From: Bacteroidales bacterium
GTDB lineage: Bacteria > Bacteroidota > Bacteroidia > Bacteroidales > VadinHA17
Reading direction: 5' to 3'
NCBI GenBank assembly: GCA_027067975.1
Contig: JAMOUS010000162.1
Coordinates: forward strand, 1 to 40,101
DNA: 40,101 nucleotides
Shown here: in pieces, positions 12,230 to 34,083 of the stretch
How positions within the stretch are numbered: position 1 is the stretch's first letter
Layout of the letters: every line of letters begins with the position of its first letter
Translations under genes and position numbers: made by a program
Notes under the pieces: model-generated
The model's input: only the letters and a program-made list of their open reading frames with translations
The model's database searches: none
What the model was told of the DNA's origin: nothing

Positions 12230-12244
12230 CGCTTTTTTCTTATT

Positions 12245-12260: not shown

Positions 12261-12358
12261 ATGAAAAAATTCTTGGAGAGGGATGGGGGTGTGAGGGGAT
12301 TTTCATTACTTTTAATAAAGATGAGATGACCGTTGTAGTATTTTAAAGAACTTTGGAT

Positions 12359-13324
12359 ATGGAAGGAATGAATACGCGTTCAACAAGAAGGAAGGTTGTG
12401 GTCGTCGGGGCCGGGGCCGTAGGGTCGACCTTTGCGTATGCCCTGGCGCGTGACGGGGCGGCCGACGAGATCGTCCTGATCGATGCCAATGCGCAGTTGG
12501 TAGAGGGGCAGGTGCTTGACCTGGCCCATGGGCAGCCTTTCTTTCCCTCGGTGGAGATCCGTGTGGGGGATCAGGAGGATTACGGCGATGCCGATGTGAT
12601 CGTGATCACGGCGGGGGCGGCGCAGCGTCCCGGGGAGAGCCGGCTCGACCTGCTGCAACGCAACCGCCGCATCATCGAAAGCATCGTCGACGATATCGTG
12701 GCCAGCGGCTCCGGCGCGGTGGTGCTCGTGGTCACCAACCCTGTGGATGTGCTGGCCTATGTGGCGTGGCGCCGCGCCGGCTGGCCCGCCGGAAGGGTCA
12801 TCAGCTCCGGCACCGTCCTCGACAGCGCCCGCCTGCGTTACTTGCTGAGCCGCTACCTCGCCATAGACATCCACAGTGTCCATGCTTACGTCCTGGGCGA
12901 ACACGGCGACAGCCAACTGGTCGCATGGTCACTCTCCCACATCGGCGGCGTACCCGTCGATACCTATTGCGGCAGCGCATCGCGCTTTGCCGACTGGCCG
13001 GAACAGAAAAAACGGATCGCCGAAGAGGTGAAACGCTCGGCCTATCACATTATCGATTACAAAGGGGCTACCTGGTTCGGCGTGGGGATGGCCCTCGTGC
13101 GCATCATCCGCTCCATCCTCCGCGATGAGAAGAGCATCCTCACCGTCTCCACTGTACTCCGGGGAGAATACGGTTTGCAGGATGTCTGTATGAGCGTTCC
13201 CTGTATCGTCACCCACGAGGGGGTCGGGCAGATCATCTCCACACGGCTCCGTGATGAGGAGCAGGAAGCTCTGGCCCGTTCGGCCGGCGTAATCCGCAAA
13301 GCGCTCGACCAACTGGGAGTGTGA
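12359..13324 (+). CDS. ldh: L-lactate dehydrogenase
   Basis: The enzyme interconverts pyruvate and L-lactate with NADH in the cytoplasm. Residues are counted from ATG 12359 (321 residues); a TTG six bases upstream and an ATG nine bases downstream are alternative starts. The Rossmann loop is VVVGAGAVGSTFAYAL, and the substrate loop is AAQRPGESR with Gln89 at the position that separates lactate (Gln) from malate (Arg) dehydrogenases. The NPVDVL motif and the catalytic histidine motif VLGEHGDSQLVAWS are present. The C-terminal GEYGLQDVCMSVP stretch is typical. It is divergent from the LacI-type regulator across a 163-base region that holds the candidate operator, so it may share that control. 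The nearby LarA-like gene could be a lactate racemase partner, but it lies inside the opposite-strand train. Confidence 0.94.
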   Translation: MEGMNTRSTRRKVVVVGAGAVGSTFAYALARDGAADEIVLIDANAQLVEGQVLDLAHGQPFFPSVEIRVGDQEDYGDADVIVITAGAAQRPGESRLDLLQRNRRIIESIVDDIVASGSGAVVLVVTNPVDVLAYVAWRRAGWPAGRVISSGTVLDSARLRYLLSRYLAIDIHSVHAYVLGEHGDSQLVAWSLSHIGGVPVDTYCGSASRFADWPEQKKRIAEEVKRSAYHIIDYKGATWFGVGMALVRIIRSILRDEKSILTVSTVLRGEYGLQDVCMSVPCIVTHEGVGQIISTRLRDEEQEALARSAGVIRKALDQLGV

Positions 13325-13392
13325 ACCGTCCCGTCTTACGGATGAAAATGATATACCTATTTTTAGAGAGTGGAGAACTTAAACGAGAGATC

Positions 13393-14559
13393 ATGAGAAA
13401 GCTTTTGGGGTTGTCATGGATGGCGGTGTTGTTGTTGTCGTGTGCTCCGCATGAGGAGGAGGGTGTGACGAACGATCTGGGCAGCTTGTACCGGCTGGCG
13501 GAGGCGAAAAGCCGGTCGATCAGTCCGGAAAACTTCACCGGGGAGAAGGGGAAAGGCGGTATGGCCACCCTCGAGGAGGGGACGGCCGCCGGCCCGGCCC
13601 GCGAACTGGGAAGAGGCTGGAAGGTGAACCCTTTCATCAACATTGCTCCCGGCGACACCTTTACCCTGGCCGACATCCGGGGGCCGGGGGTGATCCGCCA
13701 TATCTGGATGACCCCGACGGGCGTGTACCGCCTGATGATCCTGCGCATCTACTGGGATGACGAGAAGACCCCTTCGGTGGAGGTGCCGGTGGGCGACTTC
13801 TTCTGCAGCGGCTGGGGCCAGGGCAACGAGCCGCAGATCGCCTCACTGGCCATTTGTGTCAATCCCCGCAGCGGATTCAACAGCTATTGGCAGATGCCTT
13901 TCCGGCAACGGTGCCGAATCACCATGGAGAACAAGGCTGACCTCCCCGCCCGCCTATATTATCAAATCGATTACCAGCTCACCCGCGTGCCGCGGGATGT
14001 CGCCTATTTCCATGCGCAATTCCGCCGTACCAATCCCCTGCCTTACAAACAGCCTTTCACGATCGTCGACGGCATTCGCGGCAAGGGACAATATGTAGGT
14101 ACATACCTGGCCCACGGTGCCTTCAGCAAATGGTGGTGGGGGGAAGGGGAGATCAAATTCTATATCGATGGTGACAAGGAGTTCCCCACCATTTGCGGCA
14201 CAGGCGAGGAAGACTATTTCTGCGGGTCCTATGCATATGAGATGCGCGACGGCGGCGGCCCCGACGGCCGCGATGCGTATACCGAGTTTTCCACACCCTA
14301 CACCGGTTTTTACTATGTACGCGGGGCCTTCGGCAAATACCGCAACCGGGTGGGGGAATACCGCTGGCACATCACCGATCCCGTGTGTTTCGATCATGAC
14401 CTGCGGGTGACGATTCAGGCTTTGGGGTGGAAAGAAGGCGGTCTCTACAAAGCCCTGGAGGATGATATGGCGGCCGTGGCTTACTGGTACCAGATGGAAC
14501 CGCACAATCCCTTCCCGCCGCTGCCTTCCAGGGAGGAACTGGTGATACGGCCCGAGTGA
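13393..14559 (+). CDS. DUF2961 lipoprotein, glycoside hydrolase family 172
   Basis: The 388-residue protein starts at ATG 13393, which gives a short lipoprotein signal ending in VLLLSC at residue 17; an earlier in-frame ATG would place this signal internally. DUF2961 proteins form GH172, whose characterised members act on fructofuranosides and D-arabinofuranosides. Visible family features are GVIRHIWMT, the GDFFCSGWGQGNE region, SYWQMPFRQ, and GTGEEDYFCGSY near residue 275, which contains the conserved acidic pair. The usual GTGTEDYF motif has Glu in place of Thr. It follows lactate dehydrogenase by 68 bases on the same strand and converges on the GH92 gene with 9 bases between stops. Surface location is inferred from the lipobox. 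The sugar removed cannot be deduced. Confidence 0.9.
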   Translation: MRKLLGLSWMAVLLLSCAPHEEEGVTNDLGSLYRLAEAKSRSISPENFTGEKGKGGMATLEEGTAAGPARELGRGWKVNPFINIAPGDTFTLADIRGPGVIRHIWMTPTGVYRLMILRIYWDDEKTPSVEVPVGDFFCSGWGQGNEPQIASLAICVNPRSGFNSYWQMPFRQRCRITMENKADLPARLYYQIDYQLTRVPRDVAYFHAQFRRTNPLPYKQPFTIVDGIRGKGQYVGTYLAHGAFSKWWWGEGEIKFYIDGDKEFPTICGTGEEDYFCGSYAYEMRDGGGPDGRDAYTEFSTPYTGFYYVRGAFGKYRNRVGEYRWHITDPVCFDHDLRVTIQALGWKEGGLYKALEDDMAAVAYWYQMEPHNPFPPLPSREELVIRPE

Positions 14560-17514: not shown

Positions 17515-17668
17515 ATTTTTCTTCGCTGAAGCCGATCCCGATCCGGGCATCCGTCTCTCCCGGTCGACGACATACATGCTGGGAGATCCGTGGACGCGGT
17601 AGCGCAAATACACCACCGGATAGTGAGGATGATGTCATGGAGAGCCTTGTGCCGTTTTGGGAAATGTG

Positions 17669-18704: not shown

Positions 18705-20198
18705 ATGAAACGATCTTTGTTTGTACTAATGTTCACGACGATTTTCTTGTGGCCTGCCGGTCCGATTTTTTCCCAGAAGCGTTATACGGCGGATTGGGCA
18801 TCGTTGGACAGCCGGCCGGTGGCGTCGTGGTTTGCCGATGCCAAGTTCGGCATCTTCATCCACTGGGGGGTCTATTCCGTGCCGGCGTGGAGTCCCAAGG
18901 GCACTTATTCGGAGTGGTACCAGTACTGGCTGCAGGAAAGGAATGTCTTCGGCAACGGAAAGTACCAGGGCGATGAGGTGTACCAGTATCATCTTAAGAA
19001 TTATGGTCCGGACGTGACCTACTATGACCTGGCCAAGCGTTTCAAGGCGGCATTGTATGATCCCGGCGAGTGGGTTTCGCTCTTTGATCGGGCCGGGGCA
19101 AAGTATATTGTCGTCACCTCGAAGCACCATGATGGTTTTGCGATGTGGCCCAGCCGTGAGGCCAACGACCGTGGCTTCCCCTGGAACAGCATGGAGACAG
19201 GTCCCCACCGGGACCTGCTGGGCGAGCTCGAGAAAGCCATCCGGAAAACGGATCTCAAATTCGGGATCTACTATTCTCTTTTTGAGTGGTACCATCCCTT
19301 ATGGAAAATGGACCGGGAGAAGTTCGTCACCAAGCATTTCTTTCCCCAGTTCAAGGACCTGGTCGCCCGTTACAAGCCGGACATTGTCTGGCCCGATGGC
19401 GAGTGGATGATGACGGCCGAGCAGTGGCATACGCCCGAGCTGTTGGCCTGGCTCTTCAACGATTCGCCCGTGGCGGCCACGGTGGTGGTCAACGACCGCT
19501 GGGGCAAGGGCTGCCGTCAGAAGCATGGGGGCTACTTCACAACGGAGTACAAGGCTTCGGGAGACTATGAAAAACCCTGGGAAGAGTGCCGCGGCATGGG
19601 CTTCTCGTTCGGTTATAACCAGGCTGAAGATATCCAGGATTACAACTCGGCCCGGGCGCTGGTGCTGCTGCTGGTCGACATTGTCAGCCATGGCGGCAAC
19701 CTGTTGCTCGACATCGGCCCTACCGCACAGGGGAAGATCCCGGTGATCATGCAGGAACGCCTCCTCCAGATGGGTGAATGGCTCAAAGTGAACGGCGAAG
19801 CCATCTACGGAACCCGCAAGTGGGACAAGGCGGTGCAGTGGTCGGAAGGGAAAAGAGATTATCAGCCCAAGCAGCATTATCTGGGCGGTGACTATATCCT
19901 GAAACAGACGATCGACCCCGAACCGGGATATGCGGTCAAGGAGCTCTTCTTTACACGCAAAGGCGATACCCTCTACGTGATCTCCCCGCGGTGGTCGGGA
20001 CAGGAGATGGTGGTGAAGGACTTCCATGGTCCCCGCGGTATGCGGGTGACCCTGCTGGGTTACGACAGGCCTCTGGCATGGGAAAACCGCGCCGGGAACC
20101 TGGTGGTGAAGATGCCCCCCTACGATCCGGAACGCTTCGGCGAAAGTCGCAGACTTGCCTATGCTTTCCGCCTGGAAGGGGCGTTGGGGGAGGAGTGA
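18705..20198 (+). CDS. GH29 alpha-L-fucosidase
   Basis: The enzyme hydrolyses terminal alpha-linked L-fucose from glycans. The 497 residues begin with a Sec signal peptide (MKRSLFVLMFTTIFLW, cleavage near Gln24), so it acts in the periplasm or outside. The family motifs are KFGIFIHWGVYSVPAW, the SKHHDGFAMW stretch near residue 139, FGIYYSLFEWYHP, and PDIVWPDGEW with Asp231 as the expected catalytic nucleophile. NLLLDIGPTAQGKIP closes the catalytic domain and a beta-sandwich C-terminal part follows. It is a single-gene unit, preceded by 124 bases of divergent intergenic sequence and followed by a repeat-filled 302-base gap. The general acid/base cannot be identified safely because it varies between GH29 subfamilies. 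Confidence 0.96.
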   Translation: MKRSLFVLMFTTIFLWPAGPIFSQKRYTADWASLDSRPVASWFADAKFGIFIHWGVYSVPAWSPKGTYSEWYQYWLQERNVFGNGKYQGDEVYQYHLKNYGPDVTYYDLAKRFKAALYDPGEWVSLFDRAGAKYIVVTSKHHDGFAMWPSREANDRGFPWNSMETGPHRDLLGELEKAIRKTDLKFGIYYSLFEWYHPLWKMDREKFVTKHFFPQFKDLVARYKPDIVWPDGEWMMTAEQWHTPELLAWLFNDSPVAATVVVNDRWGKGCRQKHGGYFTTEYKASGDYEKPWEECRGMGFSFGYNQAEDIQDYNSARALVLLLVDIVSHGGNLLLDIGPTAQGKIPVIMQERLLQMGEWLKVNGEAIYGTRKWDKAVQWSEGKRDYQPKQHYLGGDYILKQTIDPEPGYAVKELFFTRKGDTLYVISPRWSGQEMVVKDFHGPRGMRVTLLGYDRPLAWENRAGNLVVKMPPYDPERFGESRRLAYAFRLEGALGEE

Positions 20199-20500: not shown

Positions 20501-22120
20501 ATGATATCAGGAAGATTCAAAACAAGGTGGTTCGGCATGATGGTGGCGGTGGGGTTGGCTGTGTGGGGAGCCGTGGTCTCCTGTGGGGGGGCTGAAGAGA
20601 GGCAATCAACCGCAATGCCCAATGTGGTGATCATCTTGGCCGATGATATGGGGTATGGGGATGTAGGTTGTCTCAATCCTGATGCGAAGGTGTCGACGCC
20701 GCATCTCGACCGTCTAGCGGCGGAGGGGATGGTCTTCACCGATGCGCACACGCCCTCGGCAGTTTGTACGCCCACCCGCTATGGTTTGTTGACAGGTCGT
20801 TATGCCTGGCGCACGCGTCTGCAGGGGGGTGTGCTGTGGGTGTGGGACCGCCCCCTCATCGAGCCGGGTCGCCTGACCCTCCCCCGACTGCTGAAACGAC
20901 ACGGCTATGCCACCGCCTGCATCGGGAAGTGGCACCTGGGCTGGGAGTGGCCTACCGATGACGGTTCCCGCATCAACGACAGCGTCCCCGACGGCGTGAT
21001 GGCCCGCCGGAAGAGAATCCTCTTCGGGAAGAAGGTCGATTTTACGAAAAAGCTGGGGGGAGGGCCCCTTGCCGCGGGATTTGATCACTATTTCGGGGAT
21101 GATGTACCCAACTTTCCCCCCTATTGTTTTATCGAAGATGATCATGTGACGCAGTTGCCCACCTCCTGGAAGCCGGACAGCATGTTCGGCTTTCCGGGTC
21201 CCATGGTGCCGGGGTGGCGCCTGTCGCGGGTGATGCCCGCCCTGACCCGCCATGCGGTGGAATATATCCGCCGGGCCCGGTCGCCGTTCTTTCTTTACTT
21301 AGCCCTTACCGCTCCACACACTCCCATTGCGCCGGCCGCTCCTTTCTGTGGTTCCAGCCGTGCCGGTGCCTATGGCGATTATGTGCAGGAGGTCGACTGG
21401 GCAGTGGGGCAGGTGATGCAGGCCCTCGTCGAACGCGGTCTCGACCGCAACACGTTGGTGGTGTTCACCAGCGACAACGGCTCCCCCGGCCGCGACGGCA
21501 CCGGCATGGACGGTCCCCTCAACTCGGTGTTGCGCTACGGCCACCATCCCTCGTATATCTTCCGCGGCATCAAGTCGGACATCTGGGAAGGCGGTCATCA
21601 TGTGCCTTTTCTGGCACGGTGGCCGGGACATATACCGGCAGGGAAGAAGAGCGACGAGGTGATCTGCCTCACCGACATGATGGCCACCTGTGCAGCCCTG
21701 GTGGGGGATACTCTGCCCGCCGGTGCCGGCGAGGACAGCTACAACCTGCTGCCTCTTTTCCTGGGACATCCCCATGAAGAGCCGCTGCGCGAGGCGATCG
21801 TCCATCACTCCATCGACGGCAGCTTTTCCATCCGCAAGGGAAGCTGGAAACTGGAGCTGTGCCCCGGCTCCGGCGGCTGGAGCCTCCCCAACCGGAAAGC
21901 CCTGAAAGAGGGGCTCCCGGAGATCCAGCTGTATGACCTGTCGAACGATATCGAAGAGCGTATCAACGTGGCCTCCCTCCACCCGGAGGTGGTGGAAGAG
22001 CTGTCGCAACTGCTCGAAAAGTATATCCGTGAGGGACGAAGCACCCCCGGTCCGCCACGGGAAAACGATATGGAACCGGATGCCTTCAAGTGGATCCATA
22101 ATAACAGCGATCATGAGTAA
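20501..22120 (+). CDS. S1-type sulfatase, lipoprotein
   Basis: The enzyme removes sulfate esters from glycans or other substrates. The 539-residue protein has a lipoprotein-like signal (GAVVSC, cysteine 28); the ATG at residue 13 is an alternative start. The metal-binding aspartates are in IILADDMGYGD (Asp48, Asp49). The maturation motif is CTPTR with Cys89, to be converted to formylglycine; the maturase is not in this window. Further motifs are TACIGKWHLG, FTSDNGSPG and the C-terminal ETRAL-like QLYDLSNDIEERIN. It overlaps the following GH20 gene by eight bases, so the two are translationally coupled and probably act together, for example on sulfated N-acetylhexosamine residues of mucin or glycosaminoglycans. 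The exact sulfatase subfamily and regiospecificity cannot be decided by eye. Confidence 0.95.
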   Translation: MISGRFKTRWFGMMVAVGLAVWGAVVSCGGAEERQSTAMPNVVIILADDMGYGDVGCLNPDAKVSTPHLDRLAAEGMVFTDAHTPSAVCTPTRYGLLTGRYAWRTRLQGGVLWVWDRPLIEPGRLTLPRLLKRHGYATACIGKWHLGWEWPTDDGSRINDSVPDGVMARRKRILFGKKVDFTKKLGGGPLAAGFDHYFGDDVPNFPPYCFIEDDHVTQLPTSWKPDSMFGFPGPMVPGWRLSRVMPALTRHAVEYIRRARSPFFLYLALTAPHTPIAPAAPFCGSSRAGAYGDYVQEVDWAVGQVMQALVERGLDRNTLVVFTSDNGSPGRDGTGMDGPLNSVLRYGHHPSYIFRGIKSDIWEGGHHVPFLARWPGHIPAGKKSDEVICLTDMMATCAALVGDTLPAGAGEDSYNLLPLFLGHPHEEPLREAIVHHSIDGSFSIRKGSWKLELCPGSGGWSLPNRKALKEGLPEIQLYDLSNDIEERINVASLHPEVVEELSQLLEKYIREGRSTPGPPRENDMEPDAFKWIHNNSDHE

Positions 22121-24494
22121 GAATATGCGGCAGATAAGGAATGAACGCCCGTGGTGGGGAGTCTGGCTGGTGGCAGCGTTCCTGTTGTCGGGGCTGCTTT
22201 CCTGTGGGCGGCGTGTGGCCGGACCGGCCGAGGTGAAGATCATCCCGCGGCCCGTAGAAGTGGAAGTGCAGGATGGTTTTTTTCTCCTGGATGGTTCCGT
22301 CGCTTTTGTCTTGCAAGATTCTTCCTCACGCCTGCGCAGGGCGGCGGAGATCTTTTCCGCCGGGGTGAGCGCTTCGTCATCGTTCCGTTGGGTGCCTGAA
22401 GTGCGTGACAGCGTCGCCGGGACGGCGGTGGTGGTCCTCCTCTCCTCCGACACCGTCCGGTATGGGAGGGAGGGATATTCGCTGGTGGTCACACCCCGCC
22501 GTATCACCCTCGAGGCGGCCGCCCCGGCAGGGGCCTTTTATGCTATGCAGAGCCTGCGGCAGCTCTTCCCGCCGCAACTTGAGGATTCCACCTTCGTCGC
22601 CGATGCTTGGAAGATCCCTTGCGTGCGTATCTTCGACAAGCCCCGTTTCCCGTGGCGGGGAGAGATGATCGATGTGAGCCGTCACTTCATGCCTTTATGG
22701 TTTTTGAAGAAGAATATCGACTACCTGGCCCGGTACAAGATGAACATTTTCCACTGGCATCTCACCGATGACCAGGGATGGCGGCTGGAGGTGAAACGGT
22801 ATCCCAAGCTTACGGAGATCGGGGCTTGGCGTGTCGACCATGAGGGGATGCCCTGGCACCGGCGTCCCCCCCAGCAGCCGGGGGAGAAGGCCACTTACGG
22901 AGGGTATTATACCCAGGAGCAGGTAAAGGAACTGGTCAAGTATGCGGCCGACCGTTTTGTGACCATTGTGCCTGAGATCGATATGCCGGGACACAGCCAG
23001 GCGCTGGTGGCAGCCTATCCGGAGCTGGCGTGTGATCCGGGTCCCCACTATGTGGCCACGGGCGGCCGTGTTTCGGGCAATACCCTCTGTCCGGCACGGG
23101 AGGAGACCTACCGTTTTATTGAGAACGTGCTTGCCGAAGTGTTGCCCCTCTTCCCCGGACCGTGGTTCCATGTGGGGGGCGACGAATGCAACAAGAGTTG
23201 CTGGGAGAAGAACCCGGAATGTCAGGCGCTGATGCGGCGCGAGGGGATGAAGGATGTCGAGGAGCTGCAAAGCTATTTCATCCGCAGGGTGGAAGAGATC
23301 GTCAACCGCCAGGGGAAGCGGCTCATCGGATGGGATGAGATCCTGCAGGGAGGGTTGGCTCCCAATGCGGCGGTGATGTCGTGGCGCGGCATGCAGGGTG
23401 GTATCCGCGCTGCCCGCCTGGGTCACGATGTGGTGATGACACCCCTTCCTTATACTTACCTCAGCCGCAAGCAGGGCGATCCGGAGCTGGAGCCGGGCGA
23501 TGCCCCGTACGGCATCCCCATCACCAAAGCCTATTCGTTCGATCCTGTGCCGTCCGCCCTGACACCGCCGGAGGCCCGCCACATCCTTGGTACGCAGGCA
23601 TGCCTGTGGACCGAGTTCGTGCCGGGACCCGAGCGTGCCGAATACATGCTCTTTCCCCGTCTCCTGGCCATTGCCGAGATCGGATGGACACCGCAGGAAC
23701 AGCGCCGGTGGGAGGATTTCCTGGGCCGGCTCGATTACAACCTGCTCCGCCTGAAGAACCTGGGGGTCAATTATGCTCCGAGCATGTTCAATGTGGCGGT
23801 GCAGACTTTGCCCGACACCATAGGCCATCGTGTGCTGGTGCGCCTTTTTACCGAGCATGGGGGCGTGGAGATACGCTACACCTTCGACGGTGGCGATCCC
23901 ACGCCTTCCTCACCATTGTACCGGGGGCCTGTGGAGGTGCCCGGCCCGGTGACGACGCTCAAGGCCGCCGCTTTCCGCGGCAAGGAGCGGCTGGGACGCA
24001 TCACCACGAAGGTGTTTGAACTGCATAAGGGGGCGGGAGCCCATGTGACCTTCTCTGTGCCCCCCTCGCCACGCTACGCCCCGGGAGCGCACGCCATCAC
24101 CGACGGCCTCCTCGACGGAGCCAACCCCTCCAGCCCCCTCTGGACAGGCTGGCAGGAGGTAAGCCCCACCATACTCATCGACCTGGGACGGGAAGATACG
24201 ATCCATACCGTCACGGTCAACTGCCTCGAAGTCCAACGCTCTTGGATCTTCCTGCCCCCCGAGGTGCGTGTCTTCATCTCCCGCGACGGGAAACATTTCA
24301 TGACACGCGGGATCCTCTACCGTGAACTCAAAAAGGAAGAACGCACACAGCCGGTAGCCCTGGTACTCAACATTCCGCCTACGTATGGACGGTACATAAA
24401 AGTATGGGCGAAAAATGCCGGAAGATGTCCCGAATGGCACTATGCCGCCGGGAAAAAAGCATGGCTTTTTATCGATGAGATCTTGGTAGAATGA
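22113..24494 (+). CDS. GH20 beta-N-acetylhexosaminidase lipoprotein
   Basis: GH20 enzymes release terminal beta-linked GlcNAc or GalNAc by substrate-assisted catalysis. ATG 22113 overlaps the sulfatase stop and gives a 793-residue lipoprotein (lipobox LLSC, cysteine 31). A much longer open frame extends upstream inside the sulfatase gene and is rejected. Domains in order are an N-terminal GH20b domain (about 40-175), the catalytic barrel (about 178-520) with IDVSRHFMPLWFLKKNID, FHWHLTDDQGWRLE, DMPGHSQAL and FHVGGDECN (catalytic Asp357-Glu358 pair), a chitobiase-type C-terminal module (RYTFDGGDPTPSSPLY) and a discoidin/F5-F8-like domain (PTILIDLGREDTIHTVTV to WLFIDEIL). This layout is common in Bacteroidota. 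A weak hairpin with a T-run follows 50 bases after the stop. Confidence 0.96.
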   Translation: MSKNMRQIRNERPWWGVWLVAAFLLSGLLSCGRRVAGPAEVKIIPRPVEVEVQDGFFLLDGSVAFVLQDSSSRLRRAAEIFSAGVSASSSFRWVPEVRDSVAGTAVVVLLSSDTVRYGREGYSLVVTPRRITLEAAAPAGAFYAMQSLRQLFPPQLEDSTFVADAWKIPCVRIFDKPRFPWRGEMIDVSRHFMPLWFLKKNIDYLARYKMNIFHWHLTDDQGWRLEVKRYPKLTEIGAWRVDHEGMPWHRRPPQQPGEKATYGGYYTQEQVKELVKYAADRFVTIVPEIDMPGHSQALVAAYPELACDPGPHYVATGGRVSGNTLCPAREETYRFIENVLAEVLPLFPGPWFHVGGDECNKSCWEKNPECQALMRREGMKDVEELQSYFIRRVEEIVNRQGKRLIGWDEILQGGLAPNAAVMSWRGMQGGIRAARLGHDVVMTPLPYTYLSRKQGDPELEPGDAPYGIPITKAYSFDPVPSALTPPEARHILGTQACLWTEFVPGPERAEYMLFPRLLAIAEIGWTPQEQRRWEDFLGRLDYNLLRLKNLGVNYAPSMFNVAVQTLPDTIGHRVLVRLFTEHGGVEIRYTFDGGDPTPSSPLYRGPVEVPGPVTTLKAAAFRGKERLGRITTKVFELHKGAGAHVTFSVPPSPRYAPGAHAITDGLLDGANPSSPLWTGWQEVSPTILIDLGREDTIHTVTVNCLEVQRSWIFLPPEVRVFISRDGKHFMTRGILYRELKKEERTQPVALVLNIPPTYGRYIKVWAKNAGRCPEWHYAAGKKAWLFIDEILVE

Positions 24495-24767: not shown

Positions 24768-26597
24768 ATGCTCGAGCACATCATCCGTTTCAGTCTTCGC
24801 AATAAGCTGATCATCATTCTTTTCACCCTGACGACGGTCATCTTCGGTCTCTTCTCGATCCCGCAGATTCCCATCGGTGCATTGCCGGACGTGACCAACA
24901 ACCAGGTGCAGATGATCATCACCTCGCGCAACCTCTCTATCCGGGATGAGAAGAAAGATCGCATGACCACTTCCCCCAAAGGGGATAGGGTTTGTGCGGC
25001 TACCGGTCCGGAATATCATGATTCCCGGGAAAGATGGCATCCTGTCACCGTCGATTCCGTGACGGAAGAGATCCGGCTTTTCCGCCAGTGGGAGGTAGAA
25101 CGTGTGCCTGAAATGAAGATGATGCTCGGGAAGGTGAATCCTGCCATCATCCCCACCGAGAAGAAGAATGAATGGTGGCGGTGCCGCCATGACCGGAAAT
25201 TGAAAGAGATCCAAGGCTCCAAGAAAAAAGTGCAGCTGGTTTTCCTTGGCAATTCCATCACTCACAATCTGGAGAAGCCGGATAACAAAGAGATATGGGA
25301 CAGGTATTTTTCCCGGTATGGGTTCCTGAATCTGGGCTTTGGAGGCGACCGGACAGAAAATGTGCTTTGGCGGGTGATGCATGGGGAATTGGAGGGTCTT
25401 CAACCCGAACTGTTGGTGCTGCTGATCGGGACCAACAATACGGATGCCGAACATTACCCCGCAATCCATACCGGAGAGCAGGTGGCCGAGGGCATTGCGC
25501 GTATATGTTACGAGGTGCAGCAGCGCCTTCCGGCAACGAAGATCCTCATTCTCGCCATCTTCCCATACGGAAAGGATCCGGCCAATACCCGGCGTGCAGC
25601 CAATGATCGGGCCAATCGCCTGGCTTCCCGTCTGGCCGACGGGAAACGGATCTTTTTTGCTGATCTGAACCGTTATTTTCTGGATCCCGACAATAGTGTG
25701 GATATCTCGCTGATGCCCGATCATCTGCATCCATCCCGGGCAGGAAACCGTGTCTGGGCAGCGGCGCTGGCGCCGGTGGTGGAGGAGATCCTTCACGGAG
25801 GAGGAAGCCATTACGGAGCCCCGAGGGTGCAAGGGCCCATGAAGATGCTTTACAAGAAGGTGGACAGTACGGAACTGTATCTTTATTTATATTATCCGCC
25901 CGACTTTCATCCCGGTGAGATCCGTCCGGCGATCATTTTTTTCTTTGGAGGTGGGTGGCGTTCGGGGAGTCCCTCGCAATTCACCGAACAGGCCCGCTAC
26001 CTGGCGCGCCGAGGGATGATTGCTCTCACGGCCGATTACCGCGTGGAGCGGCGTAACCATACCACTCCTTTTGAGGCGGTGATGGATGCCAAGTCGGCCA
26101 TACGATATGTACGCCGGCACGCAGTGCTGCTGGGGATCGATGCAGGCAAAATCGTCGCTTCGGGCGGTTCGGCCGGCGGACATGTCGCTGCCGCGGCAGG
26201 CATCGTCCCGCGACTCGAGCAACCGGGCGAGGATACGACCATCAGCTCACGCCCCAATGCGCTGGTGCTGTTCAACCCTGTCTTCAACAACGGACCGGGA
26301 GAATACGGCTACAACCGGATCGGCGACCGCTATCCCAAGATCTCTCCCTACCATAACATCGCTCCGGGCGATCCCCCTACAATCCTATTTTTTGGCACCC
26401 AGGACAAGCTGGTCTCGGTGCCTACCATCAAAGCCTTCCAGCAGAAGATGCAGGAGAACGGCAACCGTTGTGAGCTGTTCCTCTACGAAGGTCAGGGACA
26501 CGGTTTCTTTAACTCCTGGCACCCTGAATTTTTCCAGAGCACCATGCGGGAAACTGTGCGATTCCTTCAGTCCCTCGGTTATCTGTCTGAGGAATAA
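24768..26597 (+). CDS. Chimeric ORF: CusA/CzcA N-terminal fragment fused to SGNH plus alpha/beta-hydrolase esterase
   Basis: Residues 1-57 (MLEHIIRFSLRNKLIIILF through PIGALPDVTNNQVQ) match the start of heavy-metal RND pumps of the CusA/CzcA family, including the first membrane helix, and then the homology stops. Residues about 58-120 are unassigned. From about residue 123 (NPAIIPTEKKNEWW) the protein is a carbohydrate-esterase-like SGNH hydrolase: LGNSITHNLE with Ser163, LIGTNNTD, and the Asp-His block PDHLHPS. From about residue 365 an alpha/beta hydrolase follows with an FGGGW oxyanion loop, GGSAGGH nucleophile elbow, FGTQDKLV aspartate and GQGHGF histidine. The whole 609 codons are open. 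The normal esterase signal peptide is missing, and the pump helix at 12-32 might act as a membrane anchor. It is either a real in-frame fusion after a deletion or an assembly join. The promoter region presumably comes from the pump gene. Confidence 0.85.
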   Translation: MLEHIIRFSLRNKLIIILFTLTTVIFGLFSIPQIPIGALPDVTNNQVQMIITSRNLSIRDEKKDRMTTSPKGDRVCAATGPEYHDSRERWHPVTVDSVTEEIRLFRQWEVERVPEMKMMLGKVNPAIIPTEKKNEWWRCRHDRKLKEIQGSKKKVQLVFLGNSITHNLEKPDNKEIWDRYFSRYGFLNLGFGGDRTENVLWRVMHGELEGLQPELLVLLIGTNNTDAEHYPAIHTGEQVAEGIARICYEVQQRLPATKILILAIFPYGKDPANTRRAANDRANRLASRLADGKRIFFADLNRYFLDPDNSVDISLMPDHLHPSRAGNRVWAAALAPVVEEILHGGGSHYGAPRVQGPMKMLYKKVDSTELYLYLYYPPDFHPGEIRPAIIFFFGGGWRSGSPSQFTEQARYLARRGMIALTADYRVERRNHTTPFEAVMDAKSAIRYVRRHAVLLGIDAGKIVASGGSAGGHVAAAAGIVPRLEQPGEDTTISSRPNALVLFNPVFNNGPGEYGYNRIGDRYPKISPYHNIAPGDPPTILFFGTQDKLVSVPTIKAFQQKMQENGNRCELFLYEGQGHGFFNSWHPEFFQSTMRETVRFLQSLGYLSEE

Positions 26598-26940
26598 GAA
26601 TGGCAGCGTGGTGATCGTATGCCGCCACCAGGACGAGCTAATGATCCGTCCGGCGGAAGGTCTATGCCATGTTTCTCAACCTGTTTTCATACTTGCAGAC
26701 GCTCCGCTGATGAACCTCGTCAACAGGATGCCGGCCAATGATATCTCCTGACATAATTCGGGCGATGTTGCCCGGGCCGACTAACTGAAAGGTGCTTCGA
26801 CGGCCTGCTATGCAGAGGGAGCCGTGGCGTGATCGATGTTGCTGGCAAAAGGGGAAAAGAAAATGAAGATGAACCGGCAGGAAAAAAATCGTTATTTTCG
26901 TTCGCTATTTTCCCTAAACGGACAACAAAAAACCTTACCG
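26598..26940. other. Intergenic stretch with a possible coding remnant
   Basis: The 343 bases between the chimeric esterase and the DUF1080 gene contain no complete gene that I recognise. A plus-strand frame from about 26602 to the stop at 26751 reads without interruption (including RHQDELMIRPAEG and APLMNLVNRMPANDIS) and has coding-like composition, so it may be the tail of a lost gene. The last 60 bases are AT-rich and probably hold the DUF1080 promoter; the best -7-like word is TATTTTCG near 26893, one base off TAnnTTTG. Confidence 0.4.
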
Positions 26941-28335
26941 ATGATGAAAACACGTTTGTTTATATTTCTCTTCTTCCTACTTTCGGGAATGCTCCTTGCC
27001 CAGCAGGAATGGGTCGATCTGTTTAACGGGAAGGACCTGAAAGGCTGGGAAGAGCTCAACGGGAAGGCAAAGTATTATGTCGAAGACGGGGTGTTGGTAG
27101 GTGAGACGGTGGTGGGTTCGCCCAACAGTTTCCTTTGTACCAAAAAGCATTTTGGGGATTTCATACTGGAATATGAGGTGTTGCTCGAGCCGGCGGTCAA
27201 CTCGGGCGTGCAGATCCGCAGTGAGAGCTCGAAAGATTACATGAACGGCCGCGTGCACGGTTACCAGGTGGAGATCGATCCTTCGTTACGGCGTTGGACG
27301 GGAGGGATCTATGATGAGGCGCGCCGCGGATGGCTATACAACCTTGAGCGCAACCCCCGTGGCAAGGAGGCTTTCCACATGGGGCAGTGGAACAAGTTTC
27401 ACGTCGAGGCGGTCGGCGATGAGATCCGTACATGGGTCAACGGGGTGATGTGTGCCAACCTGGTGGATACCGTGACCGCCTCGGGCTTCATCGGCCTGCA
27501 GGTGCACAGCATCGGCAACAACAAAGCTTTGGCCGGGAAGAAGATCCGCTGGCGTAACATCAGGATCCTCACCACCGGCCTCGACACGGCCCGGTGGGAT
27601 CCCGATCCGCGGGTGCCGGTGATCAGCTACCTCGATAACAGACTTTGCCCGCAGGAGGTCGCCGAAGGATGGAAACTCCTGTGGGACGGCAAGACCACCA
27701 AAGGATGGCGCGGCGCCCGGCTCGACCATTTCCCGGAAAAAGGTTGGCAGATCCACGACGGCGTGCTGACCGTCCTGGCCGGCAACGGCCGTGAGGCCGA
27801 GAACGGTGGCGACATCGTCACTACACGCAAGTACCGCAATTTCATCCTTGAGGTCGATTTCCGCATCACGCCAGGAGCCAACAGCGGGATCAAATATTTT
27901 GTCAATCCTTACCTTAACAAAGGGCCAGGATCGGCCATTGGCTGTGAGTTCCAGATCCTCGACGACCAGCGTCATCCCGATGCCAAGAAAGGCACCAACG
28001 GCAACCGTACGTTGGCGTCGCTCTATGACCTCATCCCGGCCCGGGCTGCCACGAAGCAGTTGCAGGGCTACGCCAAACGGCCGGTGGGAGGATGGTACCG
28101 CGCCCGTATCGTCGTGCGCGGATGTCATGTGGAGCACTGGATCAACAACATCAAGGTGGTGGAATACGACCGCTGCGGACAGATGTGGCGCGCCCTGGTG
28201 GCTCGCAGCAAATACCATGTGTGGCCCCACTTCGGCGAGTCGCCCGATGGGTACATCCTGTTGCAGGACCATGGCAACGAGGTGTCGTTCAAGAATATCA
28301 AGATCCTGGAACTGAACAACTGTGATGAACTGTAG
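26941..28335 (+). CDS. Exported protein with two DUF1080 (3-keto-glycoside hydrolase-like) domains
   Basis: ATG 26941 gives a Sec signal peptide ([20 protein letters not shown], cleavage before Gln21) and 464 residues; an upstream in-frame ATG at 26836 would bury the signal. Two DUF1080 jelly-roll domains follow, at about residues 22-230 ([36 protein letters not shown]) and 255-460 ([41 protein letters not shown]). Some DUF1080 proteins of Bacteroides are known to cleave 3-keto-glycosides produced by Gfo/Idh-type oxidoreductases. The next gene, three bases downstream, is such an oxidoreductase with a Tat signal, which supports a two-step oxidation-then-cleavage role in the periplasm. Which of the two domains is catalytic cannot be told. 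Confidence 0.92.
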
Positions 28336-28338: not shown

Positions 28339-29688
28339 ATGGAAAAGAAAAGCATGACCACGCGGAGAGATTTTGTAAAGAAAAGTGCGTTGGGGGTGGC
28401 TGCTTTCGGCCTGGGAGGGGTGGCCTTTCCGGCAGCCAGCTACCGCCGTATCCTCGGGGCCAACGAACGCCTTACCGTCGCTCTCGTGGGGGCGGGGCGC
28501 CGTTTCCCCGGCTATCTGGAAGCCATGGCCAAGAACAAGGAGAACGTCCGGGTCGCCTATATCGCCGATGTGATGCGGTCGCGCCGTGAGAAAGGCCTTG
28601 CACGCTTCCGCGACCAGGTGGGTTATGAGCCGAAACTGCTCAACGACTTTCGCAAGGCCCTCGACGACAAAAAGGTGGATGCCCTCTTCTTTGCCATCCC
28701 CGACCACTGGCATGCCCCTGCCACATGGATGGCCCTTGAAGCAGGAAAACATGTCTACGTGGAAAAGCCCCTTACCCACAACCCCCGCGAGAGTGAGGTG
28801 TTGCTGGAATACCTGAAGAGATATCCGCATGTTGTCCAGATGGGCAACCAGCAGCGCTCGGCACCCGAGACGCGTGAGATCATTGCTGAAATCCACAAGG
28901 GGATCATCGGAAAACCTTATCTGGCCGTAGCCTTTTATACCAATGCCCGGGGCCGGGTGAAAAACCCTGTGCCGGCTGCCCCGCCCGAAGGGCTCGACTG
29001 GGATCTCTTCCAGGGACCAGCCCCCCGGAAACAGTATGTTGATAACGTCTTCGACTATAACTGGCACTGGTATGGCTGGGATTACGGCACTGCCGAGGCA
29101 GGCAACAATGCCACCCATGAGCTGGATGTCGCCCGCTGGGCCTTGCAGGTAGATTACCCTGTCGAGGCGGAGGTCGTCGCCGGGAAATACCATTTCCTCG
29201 ATGACGGCTGGAGCATGTACGATACTATGGATGCCACCTTCCGCTTTGCCAACGGCACCACCATCAAATGGGACGGCAAGAGCCGCAACGGCTATCCTAC
29301 CTATGGCAGCGGCCGGGGAACGATCATCTACGGCAGCGAGGGAACCGTTTACGTCGACCGGGGGGGATACCGTCTCTATGACCGGAAAGGGAAACTCATC
29401 CGCGACAGCAAATCCAAACTGGCCGAGGCAGGTACGGCCCTCGGGGGCGGCGGAGGCATGACCACCCTCCATATCGAAAACTTCTTCGAGGCCATCCGCG
29501 GCAAGGCCAAACAACACTCCCCCATCGACGAGGGAGGAAAAAGCACCTTGCTGTGCCACCTGGCCAACATTGCCTATCGTACCGGAAAACGACTGAAGAT
29601 CGACCCTGCTAACGGCCATATCCTCGATGAGGAGGCCATGCAGCTCTGGGGCAGGAAATATGAGCCGGGATGGGAGCCGAAGTGTTGA
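28339..29688 (+). CDS. Tat-exported Gfo/Idh/MocA oxidoreductase
   Basis: The 449-residue protein starts with a twin-arginine signal (TTRRDFVKKSALGVAAFGLGG), so it is folded with its nucleotide cofactor before export to the periplasm. The Rossmann loop is VALVGAGRRFPGYL, the family motif is YVEKPLTHNP, and WGWDYGTAEAGNNATHELDVARWAL holds the conserved Asp/His region of the C-terminal domain. This branch includes proteins annotated as GH109-like and glycoside 3-oxidases or dehydrogenases. It follows the DUF1080 gene by three bases and is surely co-transcribed; together they suggest oxidation at C3 of a glycoside followed by cleavage. The substrate is unknown. A repeat-rich 830-base gap follows the stop. 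Confidence 0.92.
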   Translation: MEKKSMTTRRDFVKKSALGVAAFGLGGVAFPAASYRRILGANERLTVALVGAGRRFPGYLEAMAKNKENVRVAYIADVMRSRREKGLARFRDQVGYEPKLLNDFRKALDDKKVDALFFAIPDHWHAPATWMALEAGKHVYVEKPLTHNPRESEVLLEYLKRYPHVVQMGNQQRSAPETREIIAEIHKGIIGKPYLAVAFYTNARGRVKNPVPAAPPEGLDWDLFQGPAPRKQYVDNVFDYNWHWYGWDYGTAEAGNNATHELDVARWALQVDYPVEAEVVAGKYHFLDDGWSMYDTMDATFRFANGTTIKWDGKSRNGYPTYGSGRGTIIYGSEGTVYVDRGGYRLYDRKGKLIRDSKSKLAEAGTALGGGGGMTTLHIENFFEAIRGKAKQHSPIDEGGKSTLLCHLANIAYRTGKRLKIDPANGHILDEEAMQLWGRKYEPGWEPKC

Positions 29689-30518: not shown

Positions 30519-32642
30519 CTACTCTTCTTTGATCGCCGGCAGGGGTGGTTCGTCGATGGCAGTACCGGGAGGTACTGCCTCGTCGAAAGCGATGCCGCCA
30601 AATTTTTCCCGCAAGATCTTTGTTCCTTTTACGGGTCCGTGCCACAGACTCACCAGGTTGCCGGCACAGCCGCGGTCGGCGTTCTGTGCGGCATAGAGCC
30701 GGATGTACTGGTCGAAAGTAGCCAGCATCTCATTGCAGATCCGGGCGTAATCCTCTTTCTGTTCCCGGGGCAGGGGATTGCGAGTGTCGAACCGTGCCAG
30801 CTCCCTGCCTTTTTCAAAGGCTTTGATGTAGAGGAGGGTGGTGCGGATGCGGTTGTCGAGGAAGGTGAGCCATTCGCGTCCCGGGCGGGAAGAGGTCTTG
30901 TCGCCACAGGGGGCGAGGGTGTCAAGCACCCTTTGGTAGGCCTTGTATACCTTTTCCAGTTCTTCGACGGGATAGTGGGCGAGGGGGCCGCCGTGGCGCC
31001 ACCGTCCCACCCAGCAGAAGGCGAAGCCGCCGGCATGGTGCATGGCAGTGGTGTCGGCCTCGTCGAGCAGGGTCATGGCACGGGCAAAATCCCGGGCCGG
31101 CCGGAGGCCCAGCTTGCGGGCATACTGTTCGTAGAAGGCCGCAGGGGCAATGGGACCGTACACCCCGGACAGCGCCGCGTAGCGGGCGGTGACCCTGTTC
31201 TCTGCCGTGCGCCAGTGGTTGAAAAGGATGGCTGTGGCCCGTCCTCCCGGGGAATGCTGCAGAGCCTGCTGCAGCAGGTCGTGGATGCCGCTGATGCCGT
31301 TCTGCTGGATGTACATCATGCCGTCGAACTCGATCCACGAGTAGAGGATGGCCTGCCGCCAGTCGGCACTGTCGCGTAACACCTTGTCGGCGTTGGCGGA
31401 CACCCGCATGCTGTGATGCCCCGGCATCAGCGAGATCCGCGTGCCGGCAGGGGCATAACGCCGTGCCAGGTAGTATGCCGGCCGGGCATATGCCGGGATC
31501 ACCACATAGATGCCCAGCACCATCGGCATCCCTGCGGGGACGATCTCTTGTTCACGCAACACACGCATAAGCCGTGTGACATGCCCTACCTCGCCGTAGA
31601 TATAGGCCAGGTCGCTCTGCTCGTCCCGTACCGGTGCCATCACCACGCTGTCGTGCAGCATCGCCTCTCCGAAATGGCGGCGGATCATCGCCTCGGTCTC
31701 CGGACGGGTGGTACGGGGACCCCAGCCGCCCGCCTCCTCGGTAATGAACTCCAGCTCGTCGATCATGGGATACTCCTTCAGGATCGCCTTTACCGTCTCG
31801 ACCGACCGGCTTACGTCGGTGTCACTGCTGCGGGGTTCGAAAGAGAAGCGTACCTTCATGCCGCAGTGTTTCGCCTCGGTCATCACATCTTCCAGCCATT
31901 CGATCGCCAACCGGCTGCGGGCCTCGACATTCTCAAAATAGGGCTCGATCTCCGGGATGCAGAAGTATTTTTTGTTCACGGCGATGCGGCGGATGACCGG
32001 GTTGTCGGGGACCAAATGCACGTCGCCATAAAAAAAGTGACCGGCATATTCCACCGTATCCTTCCGGATCACCTCATACCACTGCCCCGGATAACTGTGA
32101 AAAGTGATGGCGTTGAAACGCATCCGGGCCAGATTGCGGATATACGCTTTGGCATCCTCTACCGACCAGGCGGAGAGATCCATCGGGAAGTTGAGATGTT
32201 GGCGGATGCCCCGTTCCTTTACAGCGGGGACGATCTTTTCGTGATATCCTGTGACTTCTTCCCACTTGAACTTTTCAGGGGATACCGGCCCGGTGATGTC
32301 AAAGAGGTAGCCGCCTTTTTCGAGGAAGGTATAGACGGCATCCAACACCTCCCGGGGGGTGCGGCCTGTAAGTGTGATGTTGCAGCGTTCCCCTTTCTTC
32401 TCCACATCAATGGCAAAAGCTCTTTCTTCGAAAGAGGGTTCAAGACGGAAATGAAAATATACCTGGTGAATGCCGGAACCTTCAAGAGAGGAGGGGGAGA
32501 GGAACCGCTCCATCTCACTGCGGGCATATTCTGTCACCGGATCCTGCTGGGAAAGATCATAACGGATAAGAGATTCTTTCTTACCCCATTGACAAGAGGA
32601 GAGGATGAGGGTTACGGACAGGAGGAGAAGGATCTTTTTCAT
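30519..32642 (-). CDS. Large lipoprotein, putative glycoside hydrolase of unassigned family
   Basis: The 707-residue protein has a clear lipoprotein signal (LILSSC, cysteine 17), so surface or periplasmic location is expected. Residues about 25-125 look like the small alpha/beta domain that precedes many TIM-barrel glycosidases (TGRTPREVLDAVYTFLEKGGYLF). From about 140 a barrel-like region follows: RGIRQHLNFPMDLSAW, LARMRFNAITFHSYPGQW, GMKVRFSFEPRS, ELEFITEEAGGWGP, ILYSWIEFDGMMYIQQNG. A helical C-terminal part (about 510-700) is present. The layout recalls alpha-glucuronidase- or hexosaminidase-like families, but I recognise no exact family signature. Acidic pairs such as FITEEAGGWG are candidate catalytic residues. 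It follows the SGNH esterase gene after 15 bases, so both probably act on the same acetylated or acidic glycan. Confidence 0.8.
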   Translation of the reverse strand: MKKILLLLSVTLILSSCQWGKKESLIRYDLSQQDPVTEYARSEMERFLSPSSLEGSGIHQVYFHFRLEPSFEERAFAIDVEKKGERCNITLTGRTPREVLDAVYTFLEKGGYLFDITGPVSPEKFKWEEVTGYHEKIVPAVKERGIRQHLNFPMDLSAWSVEDAKAYIRNLARMRFNAITFHSYPGQWYEVIRKDTVEYAGHFFYGDVHLVPDNPVIRRIAVNKKYFCIPEIEPYFENVEARSRLAIEWLEDVMTEAKHCGMKVRFSFEPRSSDTDVSRSVETVKAILKEYPMIDELEFITEEAGGWGPRTTRPETEAMIRRHFGEAMLHDSVVMAPVRDEQSDLAYIYGEVGHVTRLMRVLREQEIVPAGMPMVLGIYVVIPAYARPAYYLARRYAPAGTRISLMPGHHSMRVSANADKVLRDSADWRQAILYSWIEFDGMMYIQQNGISGIHDLLQQALQHSPGGRATAILFNHWRTAENRVTARYAALSGVYGPIAPAAFYEQYARKLGLRPARDFARAMTLLDEADTTAMHHAGGFAFCWVGRWRHGGPLAHYPVEELEKVYKAYQRVLDTLAPCGDKTSSRPGREWLTFLDNRIRTTLLYIKAFEKGRELARFDTRNPLPREQKEDYARICNEMLATFDQYIRLYAAQNADRGCAGNLVSLWHGPVKGTKILREKFGGIAFDEAVPPGTAIDEPPLPAIKEE

Positions 32643-32658
32643 TGTACAAAGGGTTGGG

Positions 32659-34083
32659 TTAGTTGACAGCTATTTGGCAGGCTTCTGAGATGAAATGGAC
32701 GATCGGTTCGGGGTCGGGGAGGCTGTGGGGATGGTGGCCGATGCCGGGTTTATGGATGACGCGGATGGTGCCTCCCTCTTTTTTGATGATCTGTTCGAAG
32801 GGTCCGGTGTTTTCGTCCACAGGCACCACCTTGTCGGCGTCGCCGACGACATGGAGCATGGGGAAGCCGAGGGTGGCGATCTCTGCGGCGTGGTCCAGGG
32901 GGCTCACATGAGCCTGGAGGGCTTCTTCCTCACTGGTAAAGCCGTACACATTCATGCAGGCTTTCCAGTTGTCAGGGCTGCCCTTCCCTATGCCTTTCCC
33001 GCCGGGCCAGCTTTTGATATCGAGGACGGGGGCGTCGGCATAGACGGCACAAACCTTGTCGGGGTTTTGGAGGGCCCAGTTGTAGACGATCAATCCGCCG
33101 CGGCTCATCCCCTCGAGAGCGGCCTTGGGGGCCAGTCCCCCCTTCTGCAGCCAGTCGTAAAAGCGGTTCCAGCGGACTACCGCCGGCGGCGCACCGAAGA
33201 GCCCTGCCACATCGTAGTAAACCACATGATATCCCCGTTCGAGGAGGGCGATGTCTGCTTGCGGCTCGTGGCCGAAGAAACGCGCCCGCCAGACCCACGG
33301 CCGCCCTGCGGCCGTATGACGCGGCATCACAATATGGTAGGGAACACTGTCAAGCTGCCCGCTCTTCATCTCGAAACCATGGAAATTATGGGTTTCCACG
33401 GGAAGGTCGAGCTGCCGGCGCAGATCGAACGCTGTCGTGTCGGCAACCAGATGGTCATACAAACGCTCGGCGATACGGCGGGCTCCTGCAACATTGGGGT
33501 GGACTTTGTCGGGCAACAGGTCCTCCTTATCAAGGAACCAATGGTACAGGTCGATCAACTCACAACGGTTGTCAAAGGCCACCTTCTCCATCAGCGGCTG
33601 GATTTTGCGGGTGATGAGTTCAGGCGAGATCCAGACGGTATCCCCGTAATTGAATGCAGGCAGCGGCTTGAGGAGGATCACCCGGGGATGGGAAGGAAGC
33701 TCCCGGTAGATGCGGATGAGTTGCGCATAATCCCCCTCAAACGCAGGAAGATGAGCACGGCTTTTCTTTTGCGTATCGTTGGTGCCCAGCATAATGAAGA
33801 CAATGTCGGGAGCAAAAGCCTTGGAAGCTTCAAACTCTTTCGTCTTTACATAAGGGAGGGCCCCCTCGAACAGCAAGGTCGCTCCCGGGCGGCCGAAATT
33901 GGCCACGGTGTACTGTTTCCCCAGCATCTCTTGCAACTGGGCGGGATAACTGTTGTGTCCACGATCTTCAATGCCGGAACCGTAAGTGATGCTGTCACCC
34001 ACACAGGCAACCTTCGTACGCGAAGAGTGACACCCTGTAAAAAGAAATATTATGCCCAGGAGTATGAGGGGGTTTGCTTTCAT
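32659..34083 (-). CDS. Lipoprotein esterase: SGNH hydrolase fused to alpha/beta hydrolase
   Basis: The 474-residue protein has a lipobox (FLFTGC, cysteine 18). The N-terminal SGNH/GDSL domain (about 22-205) shows CVGDSITYGSG with Ser31, FGRPGATLL, LGTNDTQKK and the Asp-His block LPDKVHPN. The second half is an alpha/beta hydrolase with nucleophile elbow GMSRGG, aspartate in VGDADKVVP and histidine in GIGHHPHS. Both halves carry complete catalytic sets, so the enzyme is probably a bifunctional carbohydrate deacylase. The same two-domain order occurs in the chimeric ORF at 24768-26597, although the sequences are clearly different. It is transcribed first in a two-gene unit with the unknown lipoprotein at 30519-32642. 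The 143-base upstream region is AT-rich, without a convincing complete promoter on this strand. Confidence 0.92.
   Translation of the reverse strand: MKANPLILLGIIFLFTGCHSSRTKVACVGDSITYGSGIEDRGHNSYPAQLQEMLGKQYTVANFGRPGATLLFEGALPYVKTKEFEASKAFAPDIVFIMLGTNDTQKKSRAHLPAFEGDYAQLIRIYRELPSHPRVILLKPLPAFNYGDTVWISPELITRKIQPLMEKVAFDNRCELIDLYHWFLDKEDLLPDKVHPNVAGARRIAERLYDHLVADTTAFDLRRQLDLPVETHNFHGFEMKSGQLDSVPYHIVMPRHTAAGRPWVWRARFFGHEPQADIALLERGYHVVYYDVAGLFGAPPAVVRWNRFYDWLQKGGLAPKAALEGMSRGGLIVYNWALQNPDKVCAVYADAPVLDIKSWPGGKGIGKGSPDNWKACMNVYGFTSEEEALQAHVSPLDHAAEIATLGFPMLHVVGDADKVVPVDENTGPFEQIIKKEGGTIRVIHKPGIGHHPHSLPDPEPIVHFISEACQIAVN

Follow-up and report, generated by a model that had tools for sequence, protein, structure and literature searches.

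A candidate membrane-anchored glycosidase without an assigned family in a Bacteroidales glycan-degradation cluster

Does a cluster of glycan-degrading genes in a Bacteroidales genome encode a glycoside hydrolase (GH) that belongs to no named family? The question arises from contig JAMOUS010000162.1 (NCBI GenBank assembly GCA_027067975.1, VadinHA17 lineage), positions 1 to 40,101 of whose forward strand constitute the 40,101-nucleotide stretch analysed here (the window). In it an initial annotation had read a 707-residue lipoprotein as the possible founder of a new glycoside hydrolase family, co-transcribed with a two-domain esterase and acting on acylated or acidic glycans. We estimate a probability of about 0.7 that this protein is a membrane-anchored, exo-acting glycoside hydrolase whose family is unnamed in Pfam and NCBIfam. 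If active, it would found a GH family of small membership, with a confident model and few residues to mutate. The features on which the argument turns are as follows.

30519..32642, minus strand: 707-residue lipoprotein, candidate glycosidase without assigned family (open reading frame (ORF), library searches, homologue alignment, model)
32244..32573, minus strand: its predicted N-terminal alpha/beta domain (zincin-like, GH20b/GH67N-like), residues 24-133 (model, profile-profile comparison)
31143..32243, minus strand: its predicted eight-stranded barrel, the putative catalytic domain, residues 134-500 (models, fold comparison)
30594..31142, minus strand: its predicted helical C-terminal domain, residues 501-683 (model)
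31734..31736, minus strand: E303 codon, following strand 4; the proposed general acid, conserved in all 20 family members (model, alignment)
31323..31331, minus strand: codons of E438-F-D440, following strand 7; the two acids, invariant in 20/20, are candidates for base or nucleophile (model, alignment)
32659..34083, minus strand: 474-residue SGNH plus alpha/beta-hydrolase esterase (ORF, Pfam, motifs)

Family status and distribution

The 707-residue ORF has the lipoprotein character originally ascribed to it: an LSSC lipobox is present, and the Pfam model LPAM_1 scores 18.8 bits, slightly below its cut-off of 20. Apart from that sub-threshold score, searches of Pfam and NCBIfam returned zero matches (E<=1), and no plausible relative appeared among PDB sequences (E<=10), whether the protein was used as a single sequence or within a 20-sequence family profile; the profile retrieved 12 PDB matches, all unrelated, and reached no chain of GH138, GH20, GH84, GH67 or GH115. 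The perceived lack of a family signature is thus borne out, neither a characterised nor a non-catalytic family being confidently matched in Pfam, NCBIfam or PDB sequences. The further proposal of a new GH family stands in part: the barrel is glycosidase-like and unnamed in Pfam and NCBIfam, and the protein is set apart from those libraries and from PDB sequences, CAZy models lying outside the comparison, so that on this footing its family is probably new. Among the titles and abstract openings surveyed in the literature none described the family, which does not prove it unpublished.

A search of a genome contig collection recovered 19 related loci (given L numbers below) with 31-66% identity to the window protein over the alignment, and the ORF is therefore a real gene. 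Their hosts comprise Bacteroidales and Marinilabiliaceae metagenome-assembled genomes (MAGs), Flavivirga, Flavobacterium, Chitinophaga and its kin, Phocaeicola, Bacteroides, Parabacteroides, one Chlorobiota-labelled MAG and one Paenibacillus. The resulting family alignment of 20 rows, in which L018 was retained though cut at a contig end and some loci are mutually close (for example L017/L018 and L028-L030), has 83 invariant columns. The family is rare. Full-length matches occur in 2 of the 393 genomes of the window's order, its own genome counted, with partial-length matches only in 12 further genomes of the same set, and a phylum sample searched at E<=1e-20 yielded the family in 1 of 395 genomes, again its own. 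Counting the centre genome in each case, matches were found in 4 of 294 genomes from the taxonomic family of the Chitinophaga genome and in 1 of 104 from that of the Paenibacillus genome. The gene is present in single copy in all ten genomes tested, and its patchy presence suggests horizontal transfer.

A loose lipobox pattern was passed by 10 of the 20 rows; it overlooked L031, where the TGC is present, and several other members have plain signal-like N-termini as judged by eye. The Paenibacillus copy (L035) begins at an ATG behind a GGAGG ribosome site and is without a signal peptide; its action would accordingly be intracellular, fitting an exo-enzyme that acts on small imported oligosaccharides.

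Predicted architecture, candidate active site and kinship

The AlphaFold model of the 707-residue protein is confident (pLDDT 89.8, pTM 0.90) and places the barrel strands at residues 141-149, 178-183, 263-268, 296-300, 374-378, 402-405, 431-436 and 469-475. With the whole model as query, the top PDB match by Foldseek was GH138 entry 6hzf (E 2.1e-14, TM 0.46, 11% identity), which is titled 'targeting rhamnogalacturonan II' and which we take to be an alpha-galacturonidase; GH20, GH84, GH67 and GH115 chains came next (we assume PDB 1gql to represent GH67). VIA-align, a re-examination of Foldseek's own matches, aligned the whole model with GH84 2cho_A (Z 25.4, 461 aligned, rmsd 8.6 A, model 24..682) and with GH20C 5a6a_B (Z 22.9, 483 aligned, rmsd 6.0 A, model 26..685); none of the 50 VIA-align matches listed was from GH67, GH115 or GH138, an absence that carries no meaning. 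Modelled alone, the barrel had a pLDDT of 90.9 and aligned with O-GlcNAcase 5diy_B (Z 19.4, 265 aligned, rmsd 3.5 A) and, tied with it within 1, beta-N-acetylhexosaminidase Am0868 7cbn (Z 18.6, 285 aligned, rmsd 4.2 A). Because GH5, GH138 and GH156 also appeared in the Foldseek search with the barrel alone at E ~1e-5 to 1e-4, near the best rows (5e-06), the barrel points to no single family. The barrel-like layout, and its suggested comparison with GH20, GH67, GH84 and GH115, is nevertheless upheld by a confident model that lies structurally near all four (by Foldseek; for GH84 and GH20 also by VIA-align), and the predicted succession of N-domain, barrel and helical C-domain is shared with these families and with GH138.

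Nine acidic residues of the barrel (D155, E190, E233, E269, E298, E303, E438, D440 and E481) are invariant in 20/20 members, as are R144, R147, H149, H182, R271, H476 and R478, and most of these acids fall in loops after strands of the AlphaFold model. GH20 uses a D-E pair at the end of strand 4 and GH84 a D-D pair; the residue preceding E303, E302, is conserved in 19/20 members and is Ser in the Paenibacillus protein, a difference that disfavours a GH20-like catalytic pair, albeit through one sequence only. We propose that the active site would lie at the C-terminal face of the barrel, where E303 after strand 4 would protonate the leaving sugar and a strand-7 carboxylate, E438 or D440, would serve as base or nucleophile. 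By strand order H149, H182, R271, H476 and R478 would line the pocket, where they could bind a charged moiety, uronate or sulfate.

Sequence kinship was detectable at the level of profiles. The family aligned with group A3, an unnamed protein group of the window's order (L003-L013, drawn from 11 of 14 distant loci; open frames of 585-905 residues, most rows cut at a locus edge), with 99.9% probability over 587 columns at 18% identity. The N-domain, the start of the barrel with an H-x-YP motif, a strand-7 D and a strand-8 HW-R/T region pair up between the two, although insertions separate them and A3 is itself uncharacterised. Searched against PDB sequences, the A3 profile reached alpha-glucuronidase chains (7pug, 1.7e-09; GH115 4c90, 1.1e-07; 1k9d, 8.6e-06), the matches covering the N-domain and, in the best one, also the start of the barrel; against profiles it matched DUF4838 (99.4%), GH115 (97.2%) and GH67 (96.7%). 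The A3 group, together with L015 and L016, forms a commoner unnamed GH67N-like group that is related to the 707-residue family over most of its length and has weak or no Pfam matches, except CBM_6 in L015.

Compared directly, the family matched a DUF4838 alignment of 15 with 96.9% probability over 143 N-terminal columns, a GH67 alignment of 6 with 89.2% and a GH115 alignment of 13 with 61% over 101 N-terminal columns; the comparisons with GH84 and GH20, weak tests in which a single sequence stood for each, gave 5.1% and 0.3%. The N-domain and the start of the barrel are thus detectably related to those of the GH67/GH115 alpha-glucuronidases, both directly and through A3, yet none of the 20 members has a Pfam match (E<=1) to GH67 (67N/M) or GH115 (Glyco_hydro_115), nor to GH20 (Glyco_hydro_20/20b), GH84 (NAGidase) or DUF4838 (PF16126); one of the 20 matched Pfam GH123_cat at E 0.0024. 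The GH84 (BtGH84, CpOGA) and GH20 (GcnA, GH20C) enzymes align structurally over almost the whole chain, N-domain, barrel and helical C-domain included, but share no sequence match, and the family has E-E after strand 4 in place of D-D or D-E. DUF4838, which presumably corresponds to GH163, is similar in its N-domain, and in L031 the family gene overlaps its DUF4838 neighbour, which is the one that carries PF16126; over the barrel, however, no meaningful profile alignment with the family was obtained. Membership in GH20, GH84, GH67, GH115, GH138 or GH163 was rejected, the sequence tests having failed in each case. The family thus appears to be of the same broad stock as these glycosidases, within a wide group of three-domain barrel enzymes, without qualifying by sequence for any of them.

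Gene neighbourhoods and the putative substrate

The 707-residue gene lies within a large glycan-degrading cluster (13321-34083), among the scanned ORFs of which SusC/SusD were not recognised. Its other genes, and a catabolic block beside it, are:

28339..29688, plus strand: GFO/IDH/MocA oxidoreductase with TAT signal, 3-dehydrogenase-like, convergent neighbour, 84% identical in L017 (library match)
26836..28335, plus strand: double-domain 3-keto-disaccharide hydrolase (PF06439), two genes away, 84% identical in L017 (Pfam)
24768..26597, plus strand: second dual-domain esterase (SGNH + BD-FAE) (Pfam)
21933..24494, plus strand: GH20 protein; the ORF start overlaps the sulfatase and the true start is probably later
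20501..22120, plus strand: sulfatase
18705..20198, plus strand: GH29 alpha-L-fucosidase
14569..17616, minus strand: GH92 protein with PA14
13321..14559, plus strand: DUF2961 protein, which we take to be GH172
1525..12306, minus strand: glucuronate catabolism block beyond the opposite end of the cluster (UxaC, 6-phosphogluconate dehydrogenase, nickel-dependent putative hexonate epimerase, D-mannonate oxidoreductase, LacI regulator), also holding PdxB, a GFO/IDH gene and two unassigned plus-strand ORFs

Neighbourhoods were compared in 18 contexts (the window, and 17 loci with flanks of at most 10 kb); not every neighbour was scanned, members of a BLAST group taking the label of the scanned member, and 'GH141-type' denotes a match to the Pfam GH141 insertion domain. 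A GH29, GH95 or GH141-type gene is present in 11/18 (window, L019, L020, L025, L026, L028, L029, L030, L032, L033 and L035), with GH29 as the immediate neighbour in four of them: L019, L020, L026 and, in Paenibacillus, L035 (gaps of 32, 44, 32 and 23 nt, counting the stop codon). Homologues of GH92 are found in 7/18 (window, L019, L020, L026 (partial), L028, L029, L030), sulfatases in 5/18 (window, L017, L019, L020, L033) and a SusC/SusD pair in 6/18, recognised in L032 by PDB sequence match and in L025, L026, L028, L029 and L030 by BLAST to L032; L033 also has a GH20 gene. These fucosidase-type and sulfatase genes suggest a fucosylated, partly sulfated glycan, an oligosaccharide of which the 707-residue enzyme would trim in the periplasm alongside GH29, GH92, GH20 and sulfatases. 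As a guess at the sugar recognised, we would divide the chances as about 40% for a uronic acid, 25% for N-acetylhexosamine and 35% for another sugar. Elsewhere in the literature, clusters of the GH92-plus-sulfatase kind were interpreted as glucuronomannan loci (PMC9723552), and the enzymes of one such cluster, in Polaribacter, were later shown to digest a sulfated alpha-mannan (PMC13063451).

The esterase gene lies upstream of the 707-residue gene on the same strand, 16 nt separating stop and start, a spacing from which co-transcription may be inferred; promoter-like sites in the region (5, shuffle mean 4.3) and terminator candidates (10, against 7.5 in shuffles) are close to shuffled sequence. 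Its dual-domain description agrees in position, Pfam halves and motifs: Lipase_GDSL_2 matches residues 27-203 (3.8e-28), the alpha/beta-hydrolase model Peptidase_S9 matches residues 320-450 (2.7e-07), and the strings GDS, GTND and DxxH, and GxSxGG, GDAD and GHHPH, which we take to be two catalytic motif sets, are all found. Against the AxeA1 acetylxylan esterase model NF042968 (cut-off 700 bits) it scored 165.9 bits, through the SGNH half only. In the window this esterase may take acyl groups off the substrate before the glycosidase acts. The one relative found, at 77% identity, belongs to L017, and there too it sits immediately upstream of the family gene; the pairing is thus a local arrangement (2/18 contexts, window and L017). 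An esterase-glycosidase pair was rejected as the general rule, and an acylated substrate is not supported for the family at large. The second esterase (24768-26597) had no relatives in the other 17 loci.

An acidic substrate is weakly supported, by the sulfatases (5/18 contexts) and by the glucuronate genes of the window, in which UxaC lies ~27 kb from the family gene. UxaC was found in 15/15 family genomes tested, but a general linkage of uronate catabolism to the family, when tested, was not supported by its position in the other genomes. The other 17 loci held no relative of the window UxaC, with flanks of <=10 kb that could not show a 27-kb link. Within the catabolic block, the putative hexonate epimerase scores as a group-18 nickel-pincer protein (642.8 bits, cut-off 500), for which a hexonate substrate is only hypothesised in PMC7583248. 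UxuA had no match in the window's genome (0/1; assembly 93% complete) and was matched in 5 of 14 control genomes; a transketolase cut by the window edge (2-1453, minus strand) and, elsewhere in the window, NikR (36925-37329, plus strand) were also recognised. The set suggests a glucuronate route with a nickel enzyme, in which epimerisation of mannonate yields gluconate that feeds into the pentose phosphate pathway. The two plus-strand ORFs at 7993-10271, of 299 and 456 residues, are without a Pfam or NCBIfam match.

A PF06439 gene accompanies the family gene in 5/18 contexts and in two separate layouts, whose PF06439 proteins are 34-39% identical to each other: directly downstream in L022, L023 and L024 (gaps of 30-37 nt), and as the second gene of a convergent pair with the GFO/IDH gene in the window and L017. 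The window product (26836-28335) matches PF06439 in two stretches with 310.2 bits (cut-off 26.8), and the GFO/IDH product (28339-29688) scores 140.5 bits with NF058561, the BT_2158 glycoside 3-dehydrogenase model (cut-off 750 bits), making it a relative and not an equivalog. Genes of the fucosidase and 3-keto-hydrolase types recur near the family gene, which points to a linkage, within fucosylated and sulfated glycans, for which no enzyme is assigned. Should the 707-residue enzyme be active, these neighbours would also allow the cooperation of classical with oxidative glycan cleavage to be tested.

Competing readings and minor observations

Several observations weigh against an exo-acting glycosidase directed at such a glycan. 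A barrel by itself proves no function, the whole-chain rmsd values are large, and the proposed active-site roles derive from strand order and not from measured geometry. No fucosidase-type gene was recognised around L017, L022, L023, L024, L027, L031 or L034, of which L022 and L023 have under 4.1 kb of flank on each side; a DUF2961-like ORF in L027, the DUF4838 gene in L031 and a DUF5703 gene in L034 do lie nearby. The 6.9-kb contig of L021, which it apparently shares with L002, revealed no glycan genes on inspection by eye. The uronate support comes mainly from one window, UxaC being on another contig or at least 121 kb from the family gene in 10/10 comparable genomes (L017, L024, L031 and L034 left aside), and the relation of A3 to DUF4838, nearer than to GH115 or GH67, means that the kinship with uronidases is not exclusive.

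Two narrower readings are compatible with a glycosidase of unnamed family. That it is a uronidase of the alpha-glucuronidase or galacturonidase type, like GH67, GH115 and GH138, freeing uronic acid from a fucosylated glycan, is a tentative proposal that we hold at somewhat less than even odds: its nearest sequence kin reaches alpha-glucuronidase chains, the GH67 profile probability, the Arg/His-rich invariant set and the UxaC, mannonate oxidoreductase and hexonate epimerase genes of the window agree with it, but the GH115 resemblance is confined to the N-terminus, UxaC is unlinked to the family gene in the 10 comparable genomes and the fold search with the barrel alone favours GH20/GH84. A beta-N-acetylhexosaminidase with GH20/GH84-like substrate-assisted catalysis through E302-E303 seems unlikely, for all that GH84 and GH20C give the top whole-chain structural matches, that the E-E follows strand 4 and that GH20 genes accompany the family in two contexts; the Ser of L035, the different catalytic pairs of GH20 and GH84 and the low profile probabilities, from one sequence each, argue otherwise. 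That the protein instead belongs, as a highly divergent representative, to a CAZy family already defined but beyond Pfam and NCBIfam coverage, such as GH138 or one recently numbered, we consider rather unlikely, if less so than the hexosaminidase: GH138 is indeed the best Foldseek match, yet at 11% identity and out of reach of the 20-member profile. As to recent numbering, CAZy held 194 GH families in March 2026 (PMC13059095), and GH195 is described as a distant relative of GH99 (PMC13063451), a family outside those that the model resembles.

It is quite improbable that the new family works with a periplasmic oxidise-and-cleave route, in which an exported 3-dehydrogenase would oxidise a sugar, the PF06439 enzyme cleave it, and the 707-residue enzyme act on a glycoside that is or became a 3-keto sugar; DUF1080/PF06439 is identified as a 3-ketoglycoside hydrolase in PMC9007349. 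Still less probable is a non-catalytic, glycan-binding relative of these enzymes, which the SusC/SusD pairs would permit, but which the nine invariant barrel acids and the signal-less Paenibacillus form suit less well than they suit an enzyme. The exo-acting glycoside hydrolase of unnamed family remains our preferred reading.

Other features of these loci are recorded here. In the gene-poor interval 29690-30420 a 67-nt repeat composed of 9-nt units such as AGTGCCTTG occurs four times, its imperfect copies (73-100%) spaced 164-184 nt apart. In L033, a choloylglycine hydrolase/penicillin V amidase-like gene (12254-13294; below cut-offs) lies 171 nt downstream of the family gene. At 35080-36831 on the minus strand, probably outside the glycan cluster, the window encodes a 583-residue sulfatase-superfamily protein, nearest to phosphoethanolamine transferases (CptA-like, below cut-offs), whose N-terminal half is, by eye, probably membrane-spanning.

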